A stretch of 64,000 nt of DNA from Rhodopirellula baltica SH 1. Lineage in GTDB: Bacteria > Planctomycetota > Planctomycetia > Pirellulales > Pirellulaceae. A program made the position numbers and the translations under genes. Below are positions 2,869 through 57,261 of the stretch, piece after piece. The number at the start of each line of letters is the position of its first letter. Position 1 is the first letter of the stretch. Under the pieces are notes generated by a model. It was not told the origin of the DNA, made no database searches, and worked only from the letters and a program-made list of their open reading frames with translations. Location of the stretch: positions 4,154,001 through 4,218,000 of the forward strand of contig NC_005027.1 of the NCBI RefSeq assembly GCF_000196115.1. The letters run 5' to 3'.

Positions 2869-5829
2869 TCAATCCAAAAATCGAAATTCGGTGCTCGCAA
2901 ACATCGCCGCGATCCATTCGCGATAGCGTTCTTCGTCGCTCGACATGGCCTTCGCCACATCGCTATCCAACCAAGTGTGCAAGATTTCTTCATCGAGCGG
3001 TCGAGGGTCACGAGAGAACAACACCGCGCAAGCCCACCGGACACGCTGCGTCTCGTCGGTCGTCTCGCTCATCATTCGCTTCGTCGTCTGCATCGCCCAC
3101 TGGCGTACTTCGGGACTGCCGATCAACGTCAATGCTTGTGACGGCACATTCGTCGTCGGTCGTTTCCCAACCAACAAATCCGGATCCGCCGCGTCCAGGT
3201 TCGACAGGAGCGGTGGCACTTCGGATCGAATCAGCGGCAGATAGAGGGTTCGCTTCGGATCATCCAGTCCAAACTTGGTCGTTGCTTTTGAGTTGGCGTT
3301 GTTTTGACTGACCAAGGTTGCGTAGCTGTCCATCAAGTCTTCACGACCGCTGGGGTCGAGCGTGCCGGCAGCAACCAACATGGCATCGCGAATCGCTTCG
3401 GCAGGAATGCGTCTGCGGACAGCCCGACCTCGCAATCGGTTTTCAGGATCGAGCGAGACTCGCGGGTCATCATCCGAAACCATTGCTCGCGAATACGCGT
3501 CGCTGCAAACGATGTTTCGTATCAAACGCTTCTGACGCCAACCGTTGCGGACAAAGTCGATCGTCAACGCATCCAGCAACTCGGGATGAGTCGGTTTTTC
3601 ACCCCGAACGCCAAAGTTATCAACCGTCCGCACCAATCCTTCGCCCATCAGGTGCATCCAAATTCGATTGACACTGACGCGTGCGGTCAGCGGGTGATCC
3701 GGATCGGTCAACCACTGTGCCAACTCCAACCGACCACTTCCTTCCAACGGCTCAAACGCGGTGGTGGATTCGCTGAAGATCTGCGGAATGCCTCTCGGGA
3801 CGATGTCGCCCAAATTGCTGACTTCGCCCCGAATATGAATCGGGCAATCCTCCCGCTCATCGCTTGGTAAATCCGCGAGTGCCATCGCGGTGGGAACCGG
3901 GGGCGGAGCATTGGCGAGCAAATCGGCACGTTGTGACCTCAGCTTTTTGAGTGTCTGAGTCAACGCGGTTCGCATCGCGATCGTTCGTTCAATCTCCGCG
4001 GCCGAGTCACCCTGGTCCGCTTTGCCATCGATCTGAACCCACTGCACGGCATCGGCAATCACATAGCCATCCGTGCCACGGTTCGAGAGCGTGACCAGTG
4101 CCTGGGTCTCGGCGTCGCAGTCAAACTCTTTGAGCACGCTGTAGGTGCCAGTTTTCGGTGGCACCGTCTGATCCAGAATCAGATCGTGAGTCTCGTCGTT
4201 CAATTGGACCGAAACAGGCAGATTTGACGCCCGGTTGCCACTGGCATTGTAGTGAACGCGAAGTTCATATCGTCCGGCATTGGGCAAGACCGCCGCAAAC
4301 CGGATCGACGCCTCGCCTTTGTTGCGGTTTTCGTCGTGCACATAACCTTTGCCAACAAAACCAGATTTGTACGTTGATTCAACCCAGTGGCCTGCGCGAA
4401 CCGCATCCACATCATCGATCGTGATGCCTTCGAGTTCCGTCTTCTCTGCCAGAATTTTCAGTTCCGACTCGACTTCCTTGATCTCTCGATCGAGGCCTTG
4501 CAGCGATTGCTCATGCTTGCGAATGGACTGCTCGTGCTGTTTCGAAATTGGAAGCGGAGTTTTCTTCCAAGTGCTAACGTATTGCTGTGACTCACCATGC
4601 AGTGTTCGCGTGCTTCGAAAGATCCCCGCCATCGCGTAGTAATCTCGCGTGGTGATGGGATCAAACTTGTGATCGTGGCAGCGGGCACAACCGAACGTCA
4701 TTCCAAGAAAAGCACGACCGACCGTATCGAGTTGTTCGTCGACCACATCCATTCGCAACTTGGTCTTGTTGCGTTCACTCAGCATCTTGGTGCCGATCAT
4801 CAAGAACGTGGTGGCGACCAATTTGTCACGTCGATCTTCATCCGAGGACGCCGGCAACAAGTCACCCGCGATTTGCTCTCGAATCATCCGGTCGATTGGC
4901 ATGTCGTCGGCAAATGACCGCACCAAGTAATCACGATATCGCCATGCGTCATGATGCGTCGCATTGAAATCGCTGCCGTTGCTGTCGGCATAGCGAGCCA
5001 CATCCATCCAGTGCCTCGCCCAATGTTCCGCAAACTGAGGGCTGGCGAGATAGCGATCCACCAATCGCCGCCAATGTGTGTCGCTCGGGTCCGCTTGAAA
5101 CTGACGAAGGGTTTTCGGATCGGGTGGCAAACCGGTCAGATCAAATGCCAAACGGCGAAGTCGCACACTCGGGGGTGCGATCGGTGTCGCGGTCAAACCT
5201 TCCGCGTCCAAACGTTTTTGCACAAACGCATCGATCGCCGAATCGGAATCAAACGCAACCGGAGAAGCACTGGAGCGTGGCGGCTGAAACGCCCAAAACT
5301 CGCGAGCTTGGTCCCAATCGAATGCCTGATGCTGCGAGCGTGTAAGGTGTTCGTCCTCGTCCATCAATCTTGGATCGGCGGCGCCATCGCGAATCCATTT
5401 TTCGAAATCTCGCACCACGTGATCGGGCAGCTTTCCCGAGGGCGGCATCTCGGACGACTCGTACCGAATCGCTGCCATCAGTTCGCTCGCCGCTGGATCG
5501 CCGGGTCGGATGGCCGGCCCACTGTCACCGCCGATCATCCATCCTTCCTTCACATCCAACCGCAACGAGCCGCCAAGCTCTTCCGAATCTTCCGCATGAC
5601 ATTCGTAGCAGTGATCAATCAAGACCGGACGAATGCGAGTTTCGAAGAAATCAAAGGATTCTTCGTTCGATTCATCCGCGGCGAGCATCGCGGCGCACCC
5701 AACAGTCAACCACACAAAAGCGAGCAACCATCGAGCGGTCGGCCAACAATTGGTGATCGAACAACATCGATCGCCAGATCGTCCTGCGATGACGTCATCA
5801 AACGAGAGCGGGGCGAACGGACTCTTCAT
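2869..5829 (-). CDS. PSCyt1/DUF1549/DUF1553 (PSD1) protein with golvesin-like insert
   Basis: This 986-residue protein starts at 5829, where a hydrophobic segment ([16 protein letters not shown]) follows about 30 residues in; an upstream start at 5910 is possible. A heme-c motif CYECH (about residues 74-78) marks the planctomycete cytochrome domain. DUF1549 follows ([32 protein letters not shown] gives a second CxxCH). A coiled coil (about 440-480) and a beta domain resembling the golvesin / xanthan lyase C-terminal domain (HWVES...[10 protein letters not shown]) come next. The C-terminal half is DUF1553 ([38 protein letters not shown]). It is probably periplasmic and redox-active. The DUF1501 gene follows after 10 nt. 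Confidence 0.88.
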
Positions 5830-6043
5830 TACAGAACCGTCGATCAAAAGGTGGGGGGAGAGGCGGGTCCTATAGAGTACACCATTCCCAACGATGATGC
5901 GAAGTTGCACACATCCCGTTCATTTCCAGCGTTCCAATCGCTGAAAACCCCACTTACAAACGACAACGGCTCGCAAACTCAACTCTAGATAGAGCGTCGA
6001 TTGCGAGCCGGTCGAATATCAATTGCGTCGAGTGACGTCGAAC

Positions 6044-8406: not shown

Positions 8407-8515
8407 ATTTCGGTTCTAATCAATGGTCATCAATTGAGTTCGGCAGGGGTGCCACGATCCATTTCAGATTAACATGCCGACGAACACAATGAACGACGAC
8501 CTAGGAAAACACGCA

Positions 8516-10597
8516 ATGAACGCTCGGCGAATCTTCTGCAGCACCCTTCTGATGCTCTGTTTCAGCGTCGCGAATCTTGCTGACGGTGCAGAGAATGAAA
8601 GCACTCAACCAACGCGTCCCAACGTGCTGTTGATCATGGTTGATGACCTCGGGTACTCGGACCTGGGTTGCTACGGCAGTGAAATCGAGACACCCAACCT
8701 GGACGCGTTGGCGGACAACGGATTGCGTTTCTCGCAGTTCTACAACACCGCGAAATGCCACTCCTCACGCGTGTCGTTGCTGACCGGGCAATACTGCATC
8801 GCCGCGGGAGACACCTCGCTGTCGCATGCCGTCACCAGCGCCGAAGTGCTCGCAGCGGACGGGTACTTCACGGCCATGTCCGGAAAATGGCACCTCGACA
8901 AACAGCCCACCGATTTCGGTTTCCAGCGTTACTTTGGTCACCTCAGTGGCGCCTGCAACTACTTTCGCGGCGACAACACATTCCGTTTGAATGGCGAACC
9001 GTGGACTGTTCCTGACAAGGACTTCTACACCACGGTTGCGGATGTCGACTACGCGATGCAGTTCCTCAACGAAGCCGAAGAGACCACCGATCCGTGGTTT
9101 CTCTACGTCGCTTTCAATGCACCGCACGCACCGCTGCAAGCCTTGCCTGAAGACTACGCCAAATACAAAGGTCGCTACGACGAGGGTTGGGACAAAATTC
9201 GCGAGCGACGTGTCCAGCGTCAACACGAACTCGGTCTTCTGCCGAAGAGGTCCGAACCCAGCGAGCGACCTGCGCACATTCCCGCTTGGGAAACTTTGTC
9301 CGAGAAACGACAAACGTTTGAAAAAAAACGCATGACGGCGTTGGCGGGCATGATCGATCGCGTGGACCAAGAGGTCGGCCGGTTGATTGCCCACCTTGAA
9401 GAAACCGGTGAACTCGACAACACGTTGATCTGGTTCGTTTCGGACAACGGTGCGTGCCCGTACGATCGAATCAGCCAAAAGATTGAAGCGGAACCCACCC
9501 GTGGCGATGTCTCCTGGAGCGATTCAACCGGATGGGCCTGGGCTCGCAACTCACCGTTCCGGCTGTACAAACAAAATCAAACCGAAGGCGGCATCAGCAC
9601 GCCGGCGATCGTTCATTGGCCAGCGGGTCTGAAAACCAAACCTGGCAGCATCCAGCGCAGCCCGGCTCACTTGATTGACATTCTGCCCACCATTGCCGAT
9701 GCCACCGACAGCACCATCCCAACGACGTTCGCCGATCGTGATCTGCGACCGGTGTCGGGCCGATCGTTGCTGCCGATCTTCGAAGGTGAAACCATCGAGC
9801 GAGAGCAACCGATTCACTTGTTGTTTTCATCGGACCGAGGCCTTCGCGATGGCGATTGGAAGATCGTCAGCTTCCGCAAAGAACCATGGGAACTTTACAA
9901 CATCGCGACCGACCGGATGGAGCAGCACAACCTCGCTCACCAACATCGTGATCGTCTGACGCAAATGGCTCAGAAGTGGAACGAAATGGCAAAGGAGGTC
10001 CTGCACACTCAAACCTTCGATCCCAAGTTCGGAGTTCCGTCAGACAAACCGATCTCGATGACAGCCACTCACCCTGAGTGGACGGATTTTTCCGTTGATC
10101 CCCAAAACAATGTTCGAGGCGGCACCGGCCGCAAAAAGACACCCAAGTCCGCTTCCAGCAACAAGCAAACAGCAAGTGGTTCCATCCGAGCCCGCAAGAA
10201 CACGCAGCTACAACGACGCGAATCGGAATTGCATTTGACGTTCACCGGTGACGATCCAGGGATCGCGATTGATCGTCTGCCGGAGAACCTGCCACCGGGA
10301 CCCTATCGATTGGCGTTCGATCTGTTGAGCGAAGCCGAAGGCAACGGCGAAGTGTTCTACACAACCACGCCTGACCAGTCCCTCCCCAAGGGCCAACACA
10401 TCCCGATCGAAATTGAATCCGATGGACGATGGCATTCGCACACAATCTCCCTCGGTGACACGACCAAAATCTATCGATTGCGGTTGGACGTTAGTGAAGG
10501 AAAAGGACTGGCTCAAATCCGAGGCCTAAGACTGCTGTCATCCCAAAATGAACCCGTAATTCGCTGGCCAATCGCGAAAATCAAGGTCCTGAAGTGA
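8516..10597 (+). CDS. Secreted sulfatase with CHSSR maturation motif and C-terminal beta domain
   Basis: The start at 8516 (693 residues) is preferred because AGGA at 8503-8506 lies nine bases upstream and a signal peptide follows at once (MNARRIFCSTLLMLCFSVAN); an upstream ATG at 8474 is in frame. NVLLIMVDDLGYSDLGCYG and VSDNGACP are sulfatase metal and active-site segments. The maturation site reads CHSSR (Cys81), with Ser where Pro or Ala is usual. After about residue 520 a Lys/Ser-rich linker leads to a beta-rich C-terminal domain of about 130 residues, possibly carbohydrate-binding. It begins an apparent operon with the FAD oxidoreductase downstream. Confidence 0.9.
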   Translation: MNARRIFCSTLLMLCFSVANLADGAENESTQPTRPNVLLIMVDDLGYSDLGCYGSEIETPNLDALADNGLRFSQFYNTAKCHSSRVSLLTGQYCIAAGDTSLSHAVTSAEVLAADGYFTAMSGKWHLDKQPTDFGFQRYFGHLSGACNYFRGDNTFRLNGEPWTVPDKDFYTTVADVDYAMQFLNEAEETTDPWFLYVAFNAPHAPLQALPEDYAKYKGRYDEGWDKIRERRVQRQHELGLLPKRSEPSERPAHIPAWETLSEKRQTFEKKRMTALAGMIDRVDQEVGRLIAHLEETGELDNTLIWFVSDNGACPYDRISQKIEAEPTRGDVSWSDSTGWAWARNSPFRLYKQNQTEGGISTPAIVHWPAGLKTKPGSIQRSPAHLIDILPTIADATDSTIPTTFADRDLRPVSGRSLLPIFEGETIEREQPIHLLFSSDRGLRDGDWKIVSFRKEPWELYNIATDRMEQHNLAHQHRDRLTQMAQKWNEMAKEVLHTQTFDPKFGVPSDKPISMTATHPEWTDFSVDPQNNVRGGTGRKKTPKSASSNKQTASGSIRARKNTQLQRRESELHLTFTGDDPGIAIDRLPENLPPGPYRLAFDLLSEAEGNGEVFYTTTPDQSLPKGQHIPIEIESDGRWHSHTISLGDTTKIYRLRLDVSEGKGLAQIRGLRLLSSQNEPVIRWPIAKIKVLK

Positions 10598-10728
10598 GTC
10601 TCGTTCGGTCGGGAAAATCCTTGCCGCCAGCCCGTGAGATGGGCGAACAAAAAGCCACCTTTGGCTATGCTATTGGGTTCCCCATCCCACCTTGCAAACC
10701 CACCTCACAACGAGAAGCGACCCCTGGA

Positions 10729-13062
10729 ATGCAGTACCACCAGAGCTCCCGATCATCGGATTTGAACCGTCCATCCGCCCCCGTTTGGCTTCGCATCGCG
10801 TTGACGGTGTTGGCCTCCGTGACCATCGCGACCACAACCGCGCAAGCGGCGGATGTCTTTGTCGAAGCCGAGAGCTTTGACACCCACGGCGGCTGGAAAT
10901 TGGACACCCAATTCATCCAGCAAATGGGGTCGCCCTACTTGATCGCTCATGGACTGGGACAACCCGTCGACGATGCGACCACCAACGTGACGATTCCCGA
11001 GTCGGGCAAGTACCGAGTCTGGGTCCGCACGATTGACTGGGTTCGTCGCTGGGACGCGTCGCCTTCCCCGGGAAAATTCGAGGTCCACGTCGATGGCAAA
11101 AAGCTCAACACCACCTTTGGAACGAAGCACGCGACTTGGGATTGGCAAGATGGCGGCTTGGTCTCGTTGGACAAAGGTGACCACACGCTGTCGTTGAAAG
11201 ATCAAACCGGTTTTGATGGTCGCTGTGATTGCATCTATCTGACCACCGAACTGAACGAAACACCGCCCGCCGTGGATGACGTTTTGTCCCCGTGGCGTCG
11301 TGACAAACTGGGCCTTCCCGAGCAACCGGTTACCAAGGGCCCTTATGATTTGGTCGTCGTCGGTGGTGGTTATGCCGGAATGGCGTCGGCGATCTCAGCG
11401 GCTCGGATGGGATGCCGCGTGGCGTTGATTCAAGACCGCGGCGTGTTGGGCGGCAACGGTTCCAGCGAAGTGCGTGTGTGGGCGATGGGCAACATCCGTC
11501 GCGGCAAATTCCCTCGCATTGGCGAGATTGTGGAAGAGTTCTCTGACAAAGCCACCAAGTCACCCGGCACCTATGAAGAATTCGGCGACGAGCAAAAAGA
11601 AGAAATCGTCCGAGCCGAACCCAACATCGATCTGTTGCTGAACCATCACGCTTACGCGGTGAAGATGAAACCAGACAGCGAAACCAAGCAGATCGAACAC
11701 GTGCTGGCATTGAACACCCAAACCGGTGAAGACCTGCGGGTTGCTGGCGATCGATTCGTCGACTGCACCGGCCACGGCTGGATCGGCGAATGGGCGAGTG
11801 CCGACTTGGACATCACGGACAAGGGCCGCATGGGAATGAGCAACATGTGGCGTTGGGACGAAGTCGAGCAGGCACCAGAATTTCCTGCCACGCCTTGGGC
11901 ATTGCCACTGAACATGGACGACTTCCCGTACCCGCGTGATCACCACGGCCAATGGTTCTGGGAAAGCGGTTTTGACATCGATCCGCTCGGCGACGCCGAA
12001 GCGATCCGCGATTGGAACCTGCGAGCCGTCTACGGCGCGTTCAACGCGATGAAGAATGGCGACGGAGCTGCCGATCATCCAAACGCCCAATTGACCTGGG
12101 TCGCTTACATCGGTGGGCCTCGAGAAAGCCGTCGACTGCTCGGCGATGTGGTCTTGAACCAAGAAGACATTGTCAGCAAACGCGAATTTCCTGATGGCTG
12201 CGTTCCCAGCACTTGGTCGATCGACTTGCACTATCCCAAGAAAGAATACGCCACCAAGTTCCCCGAGAACCCGTTCATCAGCATCGCGGTGCACGATCGC
12301 CGCGTGGACCGCTCGTATGGTTACCCGGCTCCGTATCGCTGTTTCTACAGCCGCAACGTTGACAACTTGTTCATGGCCGGCCGCTGCATCAGCGTCACTC
12401 ACGAAGCCCTCGGCACCGTTCGAGTGATGAAAACGTGCGGCATGATGGGCGAGGTCGTCGGTAAAGCCGCTTCCCTCTGCACGCTGAATGACTGCACACC
12501 ACGCGACATCTACGAAGAACACTTGGACGACCTGCTGGAACTGCTCGAGTTGCCCGGCAAGGCTCGTCGCAGCACGCCATCCGCGTCGATCGAGATCCCA
12601 GAAGACGCGATGGAAAAAGCCGGCCCATATGGCCCGATGTCCGGTTTGGATCCCGAGAAATTGCCCGGCATTGTGATCGACGATCGCCAAGCCAAGACGA
12701 CGGGCAAATGGGCAAAGGGACAAGGCCTCAAGGGATACGTCGGTTGGGAATACCGCTACGCATCGGCCAATTCCAACGCCACGGCGACCTTCCAAACCAA
12801 GTTGAAGGAAGCCGGTCAGTACGAGTTGCAGATCTACAGTGCTCCTCATGAGAACCGTGCCACGACTTTGGCAATCACAGTCGCTGCTCCCGGACAGGAA
12901 CCCAAAACCGTTCGAATCAACCAACGCGACACGCCAGGCGGTGCGATTCCGGCTGGCAAGTACTTCTTGCCCGCGGACGCCGAGGTGACGGTCAGCTTCT
13001 CGACGAAAGACTCGGGCGGCACGGTGCACCTTGATGCGATTGGATGGGTCAAACAACCTTGA
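10729..13062 (+). CDS. Secreted FAD-dependent oxidoreductase with flanking carbohydrate-binding-like domains
   Basis: The ATG at 10729 (777 residues) is chosen because a signal peptide follows (LRIALTVLASVTIA, cleavage near AQA-AD); a GTG at 10594 overlapping the sulfatase stop is an alternative. Residues 35-190 form a beta domain (VFVEAESFDTHGGW, ESGKYRVWVRT). The FAD-binding fold starts at YDLVVVGGGYAGMASAIS (about 208-223) with a FAD dependent oxidoreductase (PF12831-like) body ending near MAGRCISVTHEALGTVRVMKT. The last 130 residues resemble the golvesin C-terminal domain (KGYVGWEYRYAS, HLDAIGWV). A flavoenzyme with a Sec signal suggests work outside the cytoplasm, perhaps on sugar units exposed by the sulfatase. 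The substrate is unknown. Confidence 0.85.
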   Translation: MQYHQSSRSSDLNRPSAPVWLRIALTVLASVTIATTTAQAADVFVEAESFDTHGGWKLDTQFIQQMGSPYLIAHGLGQPVDDATTNVTIPESGKYRVWVRTIDWVRRWDASPSPGKFEVHVDGKKLNTTFGTKHATWDWQDGGLVSLDKGDHTLSLKDQTGFDGRCDCIYLTTELNETPPAVDDVLSPWRRDKLGLPEQPVTKGPYDLVVVGGGYAGMASAISAARMGCRVALIQDRGVLGGNGSSEVRVWAMGNIRRGKFPRIGEIVEEFSDKATKSPGTYEEFGDEQKEEIVRAEPNIDLLLNHHAYAVKMKPDSETKQIEHVLALNTQTGEDLRVAGDRFVDCTGHGWIGEWASADLDITDKGRMGMSNMWRWDEVEQAPEFPATPWALPLNMDDFPYPRDHHGQWFWESGFDIDPLGDAEAIRDWNLRAVYGAFNAMKNGDGAADHPNAQLTWVAYIGGPRESRRLLGDVVLNQEDIVSKREFPDGCVPSTWSIDLHYPKKEYATKFPENPFISIAVHDRRVDRSYGYPAPYRCFYSRNVDNLFMAGRCISVTHEALGTVRVMKTCGMMGEVVGKAASLCTLNDCTPRDIYEEHLDDLLELLELPGKARRSTPSASIEIPEDAMEKAGPYGPMSGLDPEKLPGIVIDDRQAKTTGKWAKGQGLKGYVGWEYRYASANSNATATFQTKLKEAGQYELQIYSAPHENRATTLAITVAAPGQEPKTVRINQRDTPGGAIPAGKYFLPADAEVTVSFSTKDSGGTVHLDAIGWVKQP

Positions 13063-14843
13063 GCCAATCTGGCCCAAGCCTGCCCATCGCGGACGCATCC
13101 CGCCGACAACCTGCGTCTCGTCAGACAACTGCCTGGCGAGGACGCGGGCTGCATGCAATCCGAATCGCAATGCTGATCGGTTTGCTGGGCTGTTTGCCGT
13201 CGCCGCATCAACGCAGCGAGACGGTTGTCCGACCGACGCTGGAACAAGTCCAACAATTGGAACCCGCCGCTCGTGCGATCGCCGACACCGCGGACGAAAG
13301 CGGACGCTGGGCCATCTCGGATAGCGATCGGATTCCGTTGGGTTCCGTGGCCAGAACTTTGCCTGAAGCCAACGCGCTGGTGGGATACCGCGGGCCAACC
13401 GAAGCTCTCTTGTTGCTCGATCAACAGCACGTTGTTCGCTCGGCCGCGGTTTTGCAAAGCCATGACACTGATGAGCACGTCGACGCGGTCAAAAAATCGC
13501 CCGCATTCTTACAGCAATTCAGTGGGCTGACCTGGGATGGAACGCTTGCGGACGGAAGCGTGCCCAAGATCGATGGTGTCTCCGGTGCAACGCTGACCAG
13601 TCTGGCGATGGCGGGTGGTATCCTCAAGCGTCTGGGCACCGCCCCGGGATCGCTCGTTTTCCCGGAACCGCTGACCTTGGAAGAAACACGGATCTTCTTT
13701 CCCGACGCCACCAAAATCCATGGCGAGCGAATCGCCGTGGTCCTGGCGGACAACGAAACTCGACTCGGGTATCTGATCCGAACCGGAGCATTTGTTGATG
13801 ACGAGATTGGCTACCAAGGTCCAACCAGCACATTGGTTGCGTTGGATCTTGAACAACGTCTGTTGCGTCCCAAGATCCGGCATTCCTTCGACAACGAACC
13901 CTATGTCGACTATGTCCGCCAAGAACGATCGTTTTGGAAACGATTCGAAGGCATGACGCTGGAAGAACTCGCGGCGTTTGATCCTCTCGACGAAGAGGTC
14001 GAAGGTGTCTCGGGAGCCACAATGACCAGCATGGCCATCGCCTACACGCTTCCAAGATTCGCGACGGAGTTGTTGGCGGATGAGGAATGGAAAACGCTCG
14101 GGCAAACACCCTTTCAAAAGCGATTGCATGCTCTCCGAGAATCCATCCAAGCGACGCGTCTGTCCAACGCTGACATCGCCACGCTCGTCGCGTTGGCTCT
14201 GTTGCCGCTGCTGATTCGCTTTGGAGCGATGCGGCAAACCTGGCTGCGTCGCTTGTGGCTTTTCGCCGTCTGGTTGGTCATCGGCCTTTACGCTGGCAAC
14301 CTTTTGTCACTCGCCTTGCTGGCCGGTTGGGCCACGTCAGGAGTCACCTGGCAACTCGCCTTGGGCTTGGTCGCCCTGGCGATCGTCTCTGTGGTGATCC
14401 CACCAACTCGGCGAGGCAATCCGTACTGCAACCACCTTTGTCCTCACGGTGCCGCCCAACAACTGATCCGGCCAAGCAGTGATTCTCGTCGAAAGTGGAA
14501 ACTCCCGTCTTGGCTTTCCAGACCATTGGGATTTTTGCCCGCGATGACGTTGCTGTTGGTCTACCTTGCTTTGCTGATTCGTCCCGCCACCGATGTTTCT
14601 TTTGTCGAACCATTCCACGGGTACCTTTGGCATTTGGCATCGTGGTCCGCGATCGCTTGGACGATCAGCACGCTTGCGATCGCCTTCTTCGTTCCGATGG
14701 CCTACTGCCGGCTGGGATGCCCGACAGGTCGTCTGCTCGACTGGTTGCGACTGAAGGGAACCAGCCACCAAATCTCGCGAATGGACCTCGCCGTTATGGG
14801 CCTGCTGATCTTCGCCTGCGGCTATCGTTTCCTCATTCGTTAG
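13044..14843 (+). CDS. Membrane flavoprotein: two FMN-binding domains plus NosR/NapH-like membrane domain
   Basis: The 599-residue protein overlaps the FAD oxidoreductase gene by 19 nt. Two FMN-binding domains each end in the covalent flavin site: GVSGATLTS (Thr183) and GVSGATMTS (Thr326). At such sites ApbE attaches FMN through the Thr. A polytopic part of about six helices follows (from about 395), with CNHLCPHG (Cys462, Cys466) and CRLGCPTG (Cys555, Cys559), the paired CxxxCP motifs of NosR/NapH-type proteins. No ferredoxin domain follows the membrane part. It probably passes electrons across the membrane to extracytoplasmic flavins. Its coupling suggests that it serves the upstream flavoenzyme. 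The 3' end overlaps the convergent cyclase gene by 11 nt. Confidence 0.84.
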   Translation: MGQTTLSQSGPSLPIADASRRQPASRQTTAWRGRGLHAIRIAMLIGLLGCLPSPHQRSETVVRPTLEQVQQLEPAARAIADTADESGRWAISDSDRIPLGSVARTLPEANALVGYRGPTEALLLLDQQHVVRSAAVLQSHDTDEHVDAVKKSPAFLQQFSGLTWDGTLADGSVPKIDGVSGATLTSLAMAGGILKRLGTAPGSLVFPEPLTLEETRIFFPDATKIHGERIAVVLADNETRLGYLIRTGAFVDDEIGYQGPTSTLVALDLEQRLLRPKIRHSFDNEPYVDYVRQERSFWKRFEGMTLEELAAFDPLDEEVEGVSGATMTSMAIAYTLPRFATELLADEEWKTLGQTPFQKRLHALRESIQATRLSNADIATLVALALLPLLIRFGAMRQTWLRRLWLFAVWLVIGLYAGNLLSLALLAGWATSGVTWQLALGLVALAIVSVVIPPTRRGNPYCNHLCPHGAAQQLIRPSSDSRRKWKLPSWLSRPLGFLPAMTLLLVYLALLIRPATDVSFVEPFHGYLWHLASWSAIAWTISTLAIAFFVPMAYCRLGCPTGRLLDWLRLKGTSHQISRMDLAVMGLLIFACGYRFLIR

Positions 14844-52709: not shown

Positions 52710-54176
52710 ATGCCACGGCCTGCCTTTTACAGAGTTCTTCTCTCACTATGTGTCGCCGGTCTTCTATTCAGCAGCGGATTGGTTCTCAATGCCGAGGATT
52801 CCGGTCCGGTCTTTCGGGCCGGAGCTGCCACCAGCAACATCACACCGCCACTGGGCGAGATGATTGTCGGCGGTTGGAAACCAATTCCAGCCACCAATGT
52901 GCATGACGAACTTCACGCTCGCTGCCTGGTGCTGGATGACGGCAACACGAAGCTTGCTATCGTCCTTTGCGACAATGTCGGCATCCCTGAGGAAGTCTTT
53001 GATCTCGCCAAACAGCAAGCCTCTGATGCGACCGGGTTGCCATTCTCGAACATGCTGTTGGCATCCACGCACACTCATTCGGCAACAACCGCTCGCGGTG
53101 GTTTGAAGACAGCCAACGAAACCGAGCTGACAAACTATCAAACCTTTGTTGCTCATCGGATCTCGGACGGCATCCGTCGTGCGTTGGCAAATCTGGAACC
53201 GGCCAAGATTGGTTGGGGCACCGTGGAGGAACCGTCCGAAGTCTTCAACCGTCGCTGGTTCGTCACTGACGCCAGTCTGTTGGCCAATCCTTTCGGTGGC
53301 ATCGATCAAGTCCGGATGAACCCACCTCGGGGCAGTTCCAAACTGGATCGACCAGCGGGTCCGACCGATCCTGAAATCAGCTTTGTCTCAGTTCAAAGCC
53401 CTGACGGCCGCCCGATCGCTTTGCTGGCGAACTATTCCCTGCACTATGTCGGCGGCGTTCGATCTGGCGAAGTCTCAGCGGATTACTTTGGCTACTTTGG
53501 GAAATTCATCGAAGAGAAACTTGATGCAACCGACCAGTCGCCACCGTTTGTCGGCATCCTATCCAACGGCACCAGTGGCGATGTGAACAACATCAACTTT
53601 GCTGACAAATCGCCCCAAAAGCACGAACCCTACGAGAAGATGCAGGAGGTTGCGGAGAAGGTCGCCAGCCGCGTGTTCGAAGCCCACCAACAGATCGTGT
53701 TCCATGACTGGGTGCCACTCGCCGTTGAACACACGACCTTGACGCTGAAGACCAGACAGCCGACGCCGGAGATGATCTCCCACTTTGAACAGATCAACCG
53801 TGACGACGATGAGAACCCCAGAAGCGGCCATCGCCGTGAAGAGATCTATGCGGATCGAATCACGAAAATTTTGGCTGGTCCCAAGGAAGTGGAGATTCAA
53901 CTGCAGGCATTGCGAATTGGCGATTTGGGAATCGCGGCGATCCCGTTTGAAACGTTCACCGAAACGGGACTGGAACTGAAGGATCGCAGCCCCTTCCAAC
54001 ACACTTTTACGATTGAACTTGCCAACGGCTCCTTTGGGTACCTGCCGACGCCGCAGCAACATCGCTTGGGCGGCTACGAAACATGGCTGGGGACCAACTA
54101 CGTTGAGAAGGAAGCGACCACGAAGATCGTTGCCTCCCTGCTTGAGATGTTCCAAACCCTCCAAGAGGACAACTGA
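52710..54176 (+). CDS. Secreted neutral/alkaline ceramidase-like hydrolase
   Basis: The ATG at 52710 gives 488 residues with a signal peptide (VLLSLCVAGLLFSSGLVLNA). FRAGAATSNITPPLGEMIVG, LLASTHTHSATT (zinc-binding His pair), LANYSLHYVGG and SNGTSGDVNNINF fit the N-terminal domain of neutral/alkaline non-lysosomal ceramidases. Planctomycete genomes have many such proteins, and their substrates are not known. Its stop overlaps the next sulfatase start (TGATG), so they are coupled. Confidence 0.83.
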   Translation: MPRPAFYRVLLSLCVAGLLFSSGLVLNAEDSGPVFRAGAATSNITPPLGEMIVGGWKPIPATNVHDELHARCLVLDDGNTKLAIVLCDNVGIPEEVFDLAKQQASDATGLPFSNMLLASTHTHSATTARGGLKTANETELTNYQTFVAHRISDGIRRALANLEPAKIGWGTVEEPSEVFNRRWFVTDASLLANPFGGIDQVRMNPPRGSSKLDRPAGPTDPEISFVSVQSPDGRPIALLANYSLHYVGGVRSGEVSADYFGYFGKFIEEKLDATDQSPPFVGILSNGTSGDVNNINFADKSPQKHEPYEKMQEVAEKVASRVFEAHQQIVFHDWVPLAVEHTTLTLKTRQPTPEMISHFEQINRDDDENPRSGHRREEIYADRITKILAGPKEVEIQLQALRIGDLGIAAIPFETFTETGLELKDRSPFQHTFTIELANGSFGYLPTPQQHRLGGYETWLGTNYVEKEATTKIVASLLEMFQTLQEDN

Positions 54177-55654
54177 TGCGTTGGCTTGTTGGTTGGATCA
54201 TGGCGACGCTCACGATGTTACCGTTGCTCGGCACTGCAACGGCAGCCGAAACGAGCCAATCGAATTTCATCATCGTCTACTGTGACAACCTTGGTTACGG
54301 CGACATTGAACCATTCGGGTCGACGCTGCATCGCACCCCCAACCTGAATCGCATGGCAAGGGAAGGGCGAACGTTCACCCATTTCTGCGTCACCGCCGGT
54401 GTCTGCACCCCATCACGTGCCAGCATCATGACTGGATGCTATGCCCAACGGGTCGGCATGCACTTGAACGATCGAGACGGTGCGGTTCTGCGACCTGTCT
54501 CTCCCTATGGTTTGCATCCCGATGAGATCACGATCGCGGAAGTTCTCAAGCAACAGAACTACGCCACCGCACTGGTTGGAAAATGGCACCTGGGTGACCA
54601 ACCAGAGTTCCTGCCAACTCACCAAGGGTTTGATTGGTTCTTCGGCGTTCCTTATTCCGACGACATGACCGAGCGAATTTGGAAACAAGACGGATCGCAT
54701 TGGCCACCGTTGCCCTTGATGGAAAACGAAACCGTCATCGAAGCCCCCTGCAACCGAGACGGGCTAACCAAGCGGTACACCGAACGGGCGATGCAGTGGA
54801 TTGCCGAACACAAGGATGAACCGTTCTTCCTGTACTTCCCACAAGCCATGCCCGGCAGCACCAAGACGCCGTTTTCCAGTGACGCGTTCCGCGGTAAGAG
54901 TCGCAACGGGCCATGGGGTGATGCGGTCGAAGAACTGGACTGGTCGATTGGCCAGATGTTGGACCAACTCGTCAAACTGGGCATCGCGGAAAAGACGTTT
55001 GTGATTTGGACCTCCGACAACGGCGCCCCCATCAACCGCGATCCAGATGACTTGAGCCGAGGTTCCAACCTGCCACTTCACGGTCGCGGGTACACGACCA
55101 GCGAAGGTGCCTTTCGTGTGCCCACGATCGCCTGGCACCCCGGAAAAGTCCCCGCGGGAACTCAATGCGACGAACTGGCAACCACGATGGATTTGCTGCC
55201 CACGTTTGCGAATTTGGCCGGTTGCAAACTGCCGACGAATCGCAAACTTGATGGTCACGACATCGCACCAATATTGTTTGGTGCCCCCAACGCCAAGACG
55301 CCGCACGAGGCGTTTTACTACTACCATCAAGATCAACTGCAAGCCGTCCGCTCGGGTCCCTGGAAAATGTTCCTGCCGGTCGATGCGTCACCCGGACATC
55401 CCCACTTCAACGCGACGCAGGAACCCACGACGCTTTTGTTCAACGTGGTTGATGACATCGCGTGCCAGCACAACGTTGCCGACGCACATCCCGAGTTGAT
55501 CACCCGACTGACTGCATTGGCAGACCAGGCACGCAATGACCTAGGGGACAAGGACCAACTCGGAAACGGCCAACGCCCAATCGGAAAATCCTCGCATGTT
55601 TCGCCTCAACGTTTGGAAACGCCGCCGAACGAATCGAGCCAACCGGACTCGTGA
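54176..55654 (+). CDS. Secreted sulfatase (CTPSR type)
   Basis: The 492-residue protein has a signal peptide (LVGWIMATLTMLPLLGTATA). The maturation site is VCTPSR with Cys77. The opening metal segment reads VYCDNLGYGD, with Asn where most sulfatases have a second Asp. GKWHLGDQ and WTSDNGAPINRDPDD follow. It is translationally coupled to the ceramidase-like gene and followed 152 bp later by another sulfatase. Confidence 0.91.
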   Translation: MRWLVGWIMATLTMLPLLGTATAAETSQSNFIIVYCDNLGYGDIEPFGSTLHRTPNLNRMAREGRTFTHFCVTAGVCTPSRASIMTGCYAQRVGMHLNDRDGAVLRPVSPYGLHPDEITIAEVLKQQNYATALVGKWHLGDQPEFLPTHQGFDWFFGVPYSDDMTERIWKQDGSHWPPLPLMENETVIEAPCNRDGLTKRYTERAMQWIAEHKDEPFFLYFPQAMPGSTKTPFSSDAFRGKSRNGPWGDAVEELDWSIGQMLDQLVKLGIAEKTFVIWTSDNGAPINRDPDDLSRGSNLPLHGRGYTTSEGAFRVPTIAWHPGKVPAGTQCDELATTMDLLPTFANLAGCKLPTNRKLDGHDIAPILFGAPNAKTPHEAFYYYHQDQLQAVRSGPWKMFLPVDASPGHPHFNATQEPTTLLFNVVDDIACQHNVADAHPELITRLTALADQARNDLGDKDQLGNGQRPIGKSSHVSPQRLETPPNESSQPDS

Positions 55655-55806
55655 TCTCGAACGACCGGGTTCCATCTCGTGAGCCGTTTAGGCGTTTGCC
55701 CCGGTTGTGCGTGGAAACCGTGGCTCGTGGAAACCGTTGCTAGCACCAAACAGCTCAGATCCCCCATGACACCTGCGTACCTGTTTGACTTCCTCAAGGA
55801 TCCAAC

Positions 55807-57261
55807 ATGTCTCTCCTCCATCTCGGTCCCCGTGTCTTTCCGCTCACCGTTTGGATGCTTGTCGCTCTCTGCTCTCATGCCTGCGTTCCAACGTTACTGA
55901 GAGCCGATTCGAACGACCGACCAAACATTGTCCTGATTCTGGCTGACGACCTCGGCTATGGAGACCTGGGTTGCTACGGCAATGACGAGCAAGCAACGCC
56001 GGTCTTGGATCGGTTGGCCACTCAAGGTGTCCGCTGGACGCAAGCCTATGCCAACGGTCCAGAATGCTCACCCACTCGAGCAGCGCTTTTAACGGGTCGC
56101 TATCAACAACACGTGGGCGGTTTGGAATGCGCGATTGGAGTTGGCAACGTCGGTCGCTACGACGATGCGATTCGATTGCACTTGGTCAACGAACTGGGAT
56201 TGCCCGCCAACCGGCCGACGTTGGCGAAGCGACTGTCCTCCGTCGGCTATGAGACCGCATTGTTCGGCAAGTGGCATCTCGGGTACGAAGCCAAGTTCTC
56301 ACCAATGATGCACGGGTTCGATGAGGCGTTGTACTGCATCGGCGGTGCAATGGATTATTACCACTACCTCGACTCCGTCGCCACATACAACCTGTTCCAC
56401 AACGGTCGACCGATCAGCGGCGAAGGTTACTTCACCGACACGATCACAGATCAAGCAGTGCGATTTATCGGCGACCGAAACGCCAACGACAAACCATTCT
56501 TTCTGTACTTGCCTTACACCGCACCGCACACTCCTTACCAGGCGCCCGGCGAGTCTCCCGTCGATCCACTGCCGATTGATTCCCCGCTTTGGAAACAGAA
56601 CGCCGATCCGCCGGGTGTTTACCGAGCCATGGTGCGTCACATGGACGAAGGCATTGGAAAGGTACTGCATGCAATCGAGGAATCGAAAATGACCGATCGC
56701 ACACTGGTGATTTTCGCTAGTGACAATGGCGGCACTTCCGCGAGTCGTAACGAACCACTGCGAGGATTCAAAGGCCAGGCGTTTGAGGGAGGAATCCGTG
56801 TTCCGCTGATCGCTCGTTGGCCCGGACATTTGCCCGAGGGCGTGGTCAGCGACCAAGTCACGATCACATTCGATCTGACCGCGTCGATGTTGGCCGCCGC
56901 TGGGATCACGCCCACTCAAGAGGACGCGATGGAGGGAATTGATGTACTTTCACTCGCCGCGAACGATGAACCGGTTCAACCTCGCACGCTGTATTGGCGA
57001 AAGCCTCGCGACCCTCAAGTCTGGAGCGGCATGCGTGACGGGAACTGGAAATATGTCCGTCAAGAAAAAGCCACCGTTGACGGTCGAACCTCCATCCAAG
57101 AGTGGTTATTCAACCTGGCCGACGACATCAGCGAGCAAACCGACTTAGCCTCTCAATCCACCGACGAATTGGACCGTCTGAGAGGCAGATACCTGGCCTG
57201 GGAACAATCGGTGAGAAACAACCGCCGAGGCCGACCAGGATGGGCGCCGTCAAAAGAGTGA
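55807..57261 (+). CDS. Secreted sulfatase (CSPTR type)
   Basis: The 484-residue protein has a signal peptide, IVLILADDLGYGDLGCYGND, and the maturation site PECSPTR with Cys87. GKWHLGYEAKFSP and FASDNGGTSASRNEPLRG are further active-site regions. The subfamily differs from its neighbour at 54176. Together with the ceramidase-like gene it may handle a complex sulfated marine substrate. Confidence 0.92.
   Translation: MSLLHLGPRVFPLTVWMLVALCSHACVPTLLRADSNDRPNIVLILADDLGYGDLGCYGNDEQATPVLDRLATQGVRWTQAYANGPECSPTRAALLTGRYQQHVGGLECAIGVGNVGRYDDAIRLHLVNELGLPANRPTLAKRLSSVGYETALFGKWHLGYEAKFSPMMHGFDEALYCIGGAMDYYHYLDSVATYNLFHNGRPISGEGYFTDTITDQAVRFIGDRNANDKPFFLYLPYTAPHTPYQAPGESPVDPLPIDSPLWKQNADPPGVYRAMVRHMDEGIGKVLHAIEESKMTDRTLVIFASDNGGTSASRNEPLRGFKGQAFEGGIRVPLIARWPGHLPEGVVSDQVTITFDLTASMLAAAGITPTQEDAMEGIDVLSLAANDEPVQPRTLYWRKPRDPQVWSGMRDGNWKYVRQEKATVDGRTSIQEWLFNLADDISEQTDLASQSTDELDRLRGRYLAWEQSVRNNRRGRPGWAPSKE

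Follow-up and report, generated by a model that had tools for sequence, protein, structure and literature searches.

A predicted secreted flavoenzyme and a NapH-like membrane protein form a two-gene unit in Rhodopirellula baltica and related bacteria

Three co-oriented genes in a Rhodopirellula baltica locus

We analysed a 64,000-nucleotide (nt) stretch of the Rhodopirellula baltica SH 1 genome (NCBI RefSeq assembly GCF_000196115.1, contig NC_005027.1, positions 4,154,001 to 4,218,000 of the forward strand), which we will henceforth refer to as the window and to which all plain coordinates below refer, focusing on three consecutive genes: P0001, P0002 and P0003. A first-pass annotation, made from the sequence alone, had read them as a possible operon for the desulfation and subsequent oxidation or reduction of a glycan, with electrons passing through the membrane. 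Open reading frames (ORFs) and Pfam matches agree with the families and the single strand given there, and the ORF coordinates bear out the short overlap of the second and third genes:

8474-10597, + strand: P0001, S1-type sulfatase (ORF of 707 aa; Pfam)
10594-13062, + strand: P0002, predicted secreted oxidoreductase dependent on flavin adenine dinucleotide (FAD) (ORF of 822 aa from a GTG; Pfam PF12831)
13044-14843, + strand: P0003, predicted NapH-like membrane electron conduit (ORF of 599 aa; Pfam and hydropathy)
13044-13062, + strand: overlap of P0002 and P0003, 19 nt (ORF coordinates)

The P0001 ORF contains an in-frame ATG at 8516, which the first-pass annotation had used as the start. The listed GTG start of P0002 at 10594 is probably too early and the ATG at 10729 the likelier one, as a hydrophobic leader follows this ATG and most aligned relatives carry such a leader directly before a conserved VEAESF stretch.

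Co-occurrence and linkage of P0002 and P0003

We traced these genes in three sets, which partly overlap in genomes: 246 sampled Planctomycetota genomes (phylum sample), 100 genomes of the family to which R. baltica belongs (family sample) and the named loci, i.e., the best 80 of 586 loci obtained by searching GTDB contigs with the P0002 alignment, belonging to Planctomycetota and Verrucomicrobiota. The genome searches scored the best first-look candidates in each genome (4 or 5 in the phylum sample, up to 9-13 in the family sample), meaning that weaker or further copies, sulfatases above all, can escape them.

In the phylum sample, P0002 was found in 31 genomes (expectation value E≤1e-60) and P0003 in 23 (E≤1e-10). 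The P0002 scores were bimodal, with 18 genomes at 821 bits or more and the remaining 13 at 673 bits or less; we call the former group strong, the 821-bit line being the gap between the two groups, chosen after the scores had been seen. P0003 was present in all 18 strong-P0002 genomes and absent from the other 13 genomes with P0002, while 5 of the 228 genomes outside the strong set had a weak P0003 match. A similar association was seen in the family sample, where P0002 occurred in 51 genomes (E≤1e-200) and P0003 in 47 (E≤1e-40): 46 genomes had both genes, 5 had P0002 only (G280, G309, G333, G358, G368), one had P0003 only (G279) and 48 had neither. The corresponding Fisher values, which ignore kinship, were 3.7e-23 and 1.4e-21 in the two samples. 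With the E thresholds given, three genera (g219, g220 and g7) each include one genome with both genes beside one with neither, so the pair seems to be gained or lost together; in genus g192, a genome with P0002 alone stands beside one with neither gene.

The two genes were also physically linked, being adjacent on the same strand in 12 of the 18 phylum-sample genomes and 34 of the 46 family-sample genomes with both (in the latter, match ends are separated by 1,023 nt at most; the two adjacent sets share three genomes). Among the named loci, 11 of the 80 end too soon, and we assessed the 69 with at least 1.5 kb downstream of P0002. P0003 lay directly downstream in 36, elsewhere in the locus in 6, and was absent from the locus in 27. 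The 36 direct pairs have at most 400 nt between match ends (median 14), and 10 of them overlap. We searched 26 of the 27 genomes lacking P0003 in the locus and found a strong P0003 elsewhere in 19 (at least 433 bits), weak matches only in 4 and none in 3, such that 61 of the 68 assessable genomes hold both genes. Where P0003 was missing, we recognised no other electron carrier next to P0002 that could replace it in the nine flanks read (including L117, L119, L121, L124, L126, L128 and L139), and no CxxCH protein was seen in them; this is a weak test, the choice of ORFs having sometimes favoured antisense frames.

We conclude that the second and third genes are a real unit. Of the three-gene linkage that the first-pass annotation had expected to be conserved, the part joining these two genes therefore stands, their co-occurrence reaching far beyond R. 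baltica and their linkage being seen again in Verrucomicrobiota, and the part concerning the sulfatase does not.

Sulfatase genes near the pair

P0001 matches Sulfatase PF00884 (E 6e-54), and its C-terminal part has no Pfam match. The canonical formylglycine signature of S1 sulfatases is C/S-x-P-x-R, a pattern that P0001, reading CHSSR at this site, does not follow. The same CHSSR is present in all eight homologues read (L150-L157) of the 14 found, which indicates a conserved, non-canonical signature.

Thirteen of the 100 family genomes, R. baltica included, carry a close P0001 homologue (E≤1e-190), and 9 of the 12 matches in other genomes span nearly the whole length. None of these 12 lies near P0002 or P0003, though 9 of the genomes hold the pair, and in two genomes of the phylum sample (G137 and G220) the P0001 homologue is likewise away from it. 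Of the 80 named loci, 5 (L092, L098, L117, L123 and L147) have a sulfatase no more than 300 bp away from the pair, against roughly 2.4 expected; the expectation is a rough figure based on 7 sulfatase genes at other places in these flanks, and L092 and L098 have nearly the same layout. In L092, L098 and L123 the sulfatase immediately precedes the FAD gene, and in L117 it immediately follows it; in the same-genus genome G314 (L166), a different sulfatase lies directly downstream of the pair.

These data bear on the proposal that all three genes form a sulfated-glycan operon, in which desulfation would be followed by oxidation, with electrons passing to the quinone pool. The single strand and tight spacing in R. 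baltica speak for it, as do the sulfatase matches adjoining the FAD gene or the pair in the five loci just described (L092, L098, L123, L117 and L166). Against it stand the separation of P0001 homologues from the pair in the family genomes and in G137 and G220, the count of neighbouring sulfatases (5 loci against roughly 2.4 expected) and the general abundance of such genes: at least 110 sulfatases are encoded by R. baltica (PMC2754498), so sulfatase neighbours are to be expected. We consider this operon very improbable and reject the sulfatase as a member of the unit; desulfation followed by oxidation has no comparative support, and P0001 looks like a chance neighbour. Two further sulfatase genes lie in tandem on the + strand elsewhere in the window (54176-57261; our own hidden Markov model, HMM).

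P0002, a predicted secreted FAD enzyme

P0002 matches FAD_oxidored PF12831 (E 3e-67, 228 bits against a gathering score of 27) and Golvesin_C PF25275 in Pfam. Its parts are as follows:

10729-10845, + strand: N-terminal signal peptide, Sec-like, no twin arginine seen (sequence, by eye; boundary approximate)
10867-11208, + strand: N-terminal Golvesin-type beta domain (Pfam, E 8e-8, 32.9 bits against a cut-off of 31.6)
11332-12543, + strand: FAD-binding core with one GxGxxG Rossmann motif (Pfam; boundary approximate)
12676-13041, + strand: C-terminal Golvesin_C beta domain (Pfam)

A hydrophobic leader, judged by eye, is present at the N-terminus of every protein in alignment A1, which comprises the strong P0002 proteins except those of G198 and G105 (16 of 18); the starts of some had been set by hand. 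P0002 thus looks secreted, in line with the extracytoplasmic location suggested by the first-pass annotation. Pfam recognised no second, NAD(P)H-type domain, no heme or flavin mononucleotide (FMN) domain and no lyase domain in P0002.

A structure model was computed from a hand-picked alignment (A3) of 87 sequences, comprising the window's protein, those from sampled genomes and named loci, and eight more distant relatives. It reached a predicted local distance difference test (pLDDT) score of 94.8 and a predicted template modelling (pTM) score of 0.91, and supersedes an earlier model from 16 rows (pLDDT 72.4). As modelled, P0002 is a flavoprotein core of two dinucleotide domains flanked by two Golvesin-type beta domains. 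The first flavoenzyme rows in a Foldseek search with the 87-row model were flavocytochrome c3 and FrdA, with template modelling scores (TM-scores) of about 0.22-0.32, whereas VIA-align ranked lipoamide dehydrogenases first among flavoenzymes. The top Foldseek rows overall were long multi-domain toxins (TM-score 0.11-0.16, root-mean-square deviation about 28-30 Å), which we attribute to chain length and beta domains and disregard as artefacts. At the sequence level, P0002 matches in PDB span little beyond the Rossmann motif, and the NCBIfam matches of the listed families are short and confined to that motif; the fumarate reductase/flavocytochrome c family models fell below their cut-offs (e.g., TIGR01813, 18.8 bits against 285).

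Foldseek also matched the model to CBM35/CBM6 carbohydrate-binding modules (CBMs), without specifying the matched region of the model. Taken separately, both end domains are Golvesin-type in Pfam, the N-terminal one barely above the cut-off; CBM_35 itself reached 14.5 bits, below its cut-off of 28, and the N-terminal domain, searched by sequence against PDB, gave no match below E 1. The C-terminal region of a Paenibacillus xanthan lyase (PDB 6f2p) shares only the Golvesin/CBM-like domains with P0002, and these are placed differently (root-mean-square deviation 25 Å); its lyase domain has no counterpart in P0002. Elsewhere in the window (2869-5910), a planctomycete cytochrome protein (PSCyt1/2, PSD1) carries the same Golvesin_C domain.

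P0003, a NapH-like membrane protein with FMN domains

Pfam detects FMN_bind PF04205 (E 2e-11) and Fer4_5 PF12801 (E 6e-13) in P0003. A second FMN stretch at residues 249-333, missed by Pfam, matches the RnfG model NF045876 (E 3e-9), and both FMN domains contain VSGAT, with SGAT at residues 180 and 323. The features are:

13383-13616, + strand: first FMN_bind domain (Pfam), with SGAT flavinylation motif at 13581-13592
13788-14042, + strand: second, RnfG-like FMN domain (NCBIfam), with SGAT motif at 14010-14021
14427-14444, + strand: first CxxxCP, residues 462-467, predicted on the cytoplasmic side
14706-14723, + strand: second CxxxCP, residues 555-560, predicted on the cytoplasmic side

Hydropathy suggests an anchor at residues 35-53, followed by about 320 residues with both FMN domains and then by six transmembrane helices, and the positive-inside rule places the FMN domains outside the membrane and both CxxxCP motifs inside. 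Family matches, motif positions and topology thus agree with the two FMN sites and CxxxCP motifs described in the first-pass annotation. Apart from the four in the CxxxC motifs, P0003 contains just two cysteines, Cys50 and Cys592. In alignment A2 (16 proteins, the window's included, drawn from the 23 genomes in which P0003 was matched), the second flavinylation motif keeps its SGA throughout, and all four CxxxC cysteines and the second CP are likewise invariant; the first cysteine motif reads CxxxCA in three proteins (L032, L037, L039). Seven of the 16 proteins have a single FMN domain, meaning that two FMN sites are not essential.

The best NCBIfam match of P0003 is NosR (NF046105), which raises the question of whether P0003 could be a NosR acting in nitrous oxide reduction or its regulation, with P0002 as an unrelated neighbour. 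The score of 61 bits is, however, far under the cut-off of 1000, and we reject this assignment on that score. NosR has C-terminal ferredoxin-type 4Fe-4S domains, whereas Pfam and NCBIfam found neither a C-terminal ferredoxin domain nor any further Fer4 match in P0003. In addition, the single NosZ model tried (TIGR04246) gave a best match in the genome of 27 bits against a cut-off of 625, and the co-occurrence of P0003 with P0002 argues against an accidental neighbourhood. Taken together, this makes a NosR role extremely unlikely.

Outside the pair, a distant P0003 relative (FMN domain plus NapH-like part) is fused to a nitroreductase domain (L048:8851-10680), and a similar, nitroreductase-like gene lies directly behind it (L048:10777-11316).

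ApbE genes in the genome and near the pair

FMN domains of this type had been linked in the first-pass annotation to flavinylation by ApbE, and apbE indeed matches at three places in the R. baltica genome, none of them near the window. One of the three (L067:8069-9691) encodes an ApbE protein with a C-terminal NqrM-like domain, joining a flavin transferase to a maturation factor of Na+-NQR, and probably serves Na+-NQR.

Among the 42 named loci that hold a P0003-like gene, 17 have an apbE match within 200 bp of it, and in three more loci (L080, L085, L086) apbE lies about 300 nt upstream of P0002. In L036, L038, L158 and L161, ApbE is fused to the end of P0003 (Pfam), as it is in L159 and L160 by our own HMM only. 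These fusions tie P0003 directly to flavinylation. A FastTree phylogeny of 30 ApbE sequences, printed without support values, did not show a single dedicated clade; the linked, fused and upstream genes were scattered over the tree, suggesting repeated association.

Other genes around the pair

To look for a conserved third gene, we clustered the flanking ORFs of the 80 named loci all against all. Once antisense or overlapping frames of P0002 and P0003 were set aside, a single further cluster was widespread, occurring in 22 of the 80 loci, and by its coordinates this is apbE. The remaining clusters were rarer (e.g., DUF1501 in 10 loci, DUF1559 in 8, sulfatase in 7) or lineage-local, and we rejected them as candidates for a conserved third gene.

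Several local neighbours were also recorded. An 800-aa gene with no Pfam, NCBIfam or PDB sequence match occurs in seven loci (L127:5449-7941, L134, L123, L131, L145, L126 and L147; partial in some), directly upstream of the FAD gene in five of them, and its parts appear to match each other. In two same-genus genomes (L166:11023-14661 and L167:2846-6263), genes assigned to the DHDPS, proline racemase and serine dehydratase families (Pfam check on L166 only), possibly for amino-acid (hydroxyproline-like) catabolism, are oriented divergently from the pair. Finally, a gene located behind an extracytoplasmic function (ECF) sigma factor, some 2 kb away from the pair (L040:14969-17557), encodes a formylglycine-generating-enzyme-like domain joined to a protein kinase; both neighbours were seen in one genus.

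A predicted extracytoplasmic electron-transfer unit

We propose that P0002 and P0003 probably constitute a two-component extracytoplasmic electron-transfer unit, a judgement that covers neither its direction nor its substrate. Starting from the computed parts, predicted location, partnership and availability of apbE, we infer covalent FMN on P0003 and the following electron path. P0002 would be exported and exchange electrons between a substrate and its bound FAD, its two Golvesin/CBM-like domains probably holding it on a carbohydrate-type ligand. As no NAD(P)H domain was recognised in it, P0002 would need a redox partner, and P0003 would be the partner that re-oxidises (or reduces) it. ApbE would attach FMN to both SGAT motifs of P0003 on the outer face, and electrons would pass from FAD to the first and second FMN, on to the six-helix NapH-like domain with its CxxxCP cysteines, and from there to the quinone pool or the cytoplasmic face.

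The membrane half of such a unit has known counterparts. Flavinylated NapH-like systems are described as a PF12801 membrane protein with an N-terminal extracytosolic FMN-binding domain and an ApbE motif, adjoining an extracytosolic oxidoreductase, and have been proposed to pass electrons on to extracytosolic reductases or to accept them from oxidases (PMC8238504). P0003 shows the same traits: PF12801 with several transmembrane helices, a predicted extracytosolic FMN domain with [S/T]GA[S/T] and ApbE in the genome. The difference lies in the partner, here a FAD enzyme of the PF12831 family that carries Golvesin/CBM-like domains. The partners named for flavinylated NapH-like systems are those of organohalide and nitrous oxide reduction, the nitrite reductase NirS and ExaA (PMC8238504), and the terms 'FAD_oxidored', 'Planctomycet' and 'Verrucomicrobi' have no occurrence in the main text of that article.

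The likeliest direction would be the oxidation of an extracytoplasmic, sugar-like substrate with electrons entering respiration. We lean towards oxidation as the activity of P0002, while a carbohydrate as its substrate, at which the two Golvesin/CBM-like domains hint, is about an even call. ExaA is a quinoprotein, whereas P0002 is predicted to be a flavoprotein and bears sugar-binding-like domains. The two would nevertheless be alike as extracytosolic oxidases that deliver electrons to the respiratory chain via a flavinylated NapH-like protein, as proposed for ExaA (PMC8238504).

Two observations weigh against the proposal. The seven exceptions among the 68 assessable genomes count against an obligate pair, and the fumarate-reductase family, first among flavoenzymes in the Foldseek search with the model, usually reduces its substrates. 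The latter leads to a rival in which the same two genes work in reverse, P0003 taking electrons from quinol and P0002 reducing an extracytoplasmic acceptor in the manner of periplasmic fumarate or urocanate reductases. Flavocytochrome c3/FccA and UrdA of Shewanella carry FAD. They are, like the proposed P0002, extracytosolic enzymes, and cytochrome or flavinylated domains connect them to the membrane (PMC8238504); P0002 differs from them in having no heme or FMN domain found by Pfam. Flavinylated NapH-like proteins that serve organohalide and nitrous oxide reduction fit the rival as well, but ExaA, an alcohol oxidase, is also accompanied by flavinylated NapH-like genes (PMC8238504). The structural resemblance, moreover, is slight, the TM-score to flavocytochrome c3 being only about 0.3 and VIA-align favouring lipoamide dehydrogenases, and R. 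baltica is an aerobe. We therefore regard the reductive direction as a doubtful, though real, possibility.

Returning to oxidation, a more specific version can be offered tentatively: a respiratory module in which the CBM-bearing FAD enzyme would act outside the membrane on sugars, whether free or bound in polysaccharides, oxidising them and passing electrons via covalent FMN to quinone. Among the papers listed by a literature search, judged by title and beginning of abstract and covering few subscription journals, we found no description of the P0002-P0003 pair. As far as that literature goes, the type of module is known, while the enzyme that serves as partner and its association with P0003 in two phyla appear to be new.

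To our knowledge, secreted PF12831 enzymes of the P0002 kind have no assigned electron partner; the pair would supply one, making their function testable. It would also represent a new class of partner for flavinylated NapH-like systems, for most of which the reaction is still unknown (PMC8238504). If the sugar-oxidation module is true, import and NADH would be bypassed by a 'flavin wire' for glycan oxidation in planctomycetes and verrucomicrobia. More broadly, if P0002 does act in the oxidative direction, some of the main marine glycan degraders would take respiratory electrons from sugars before importing them.

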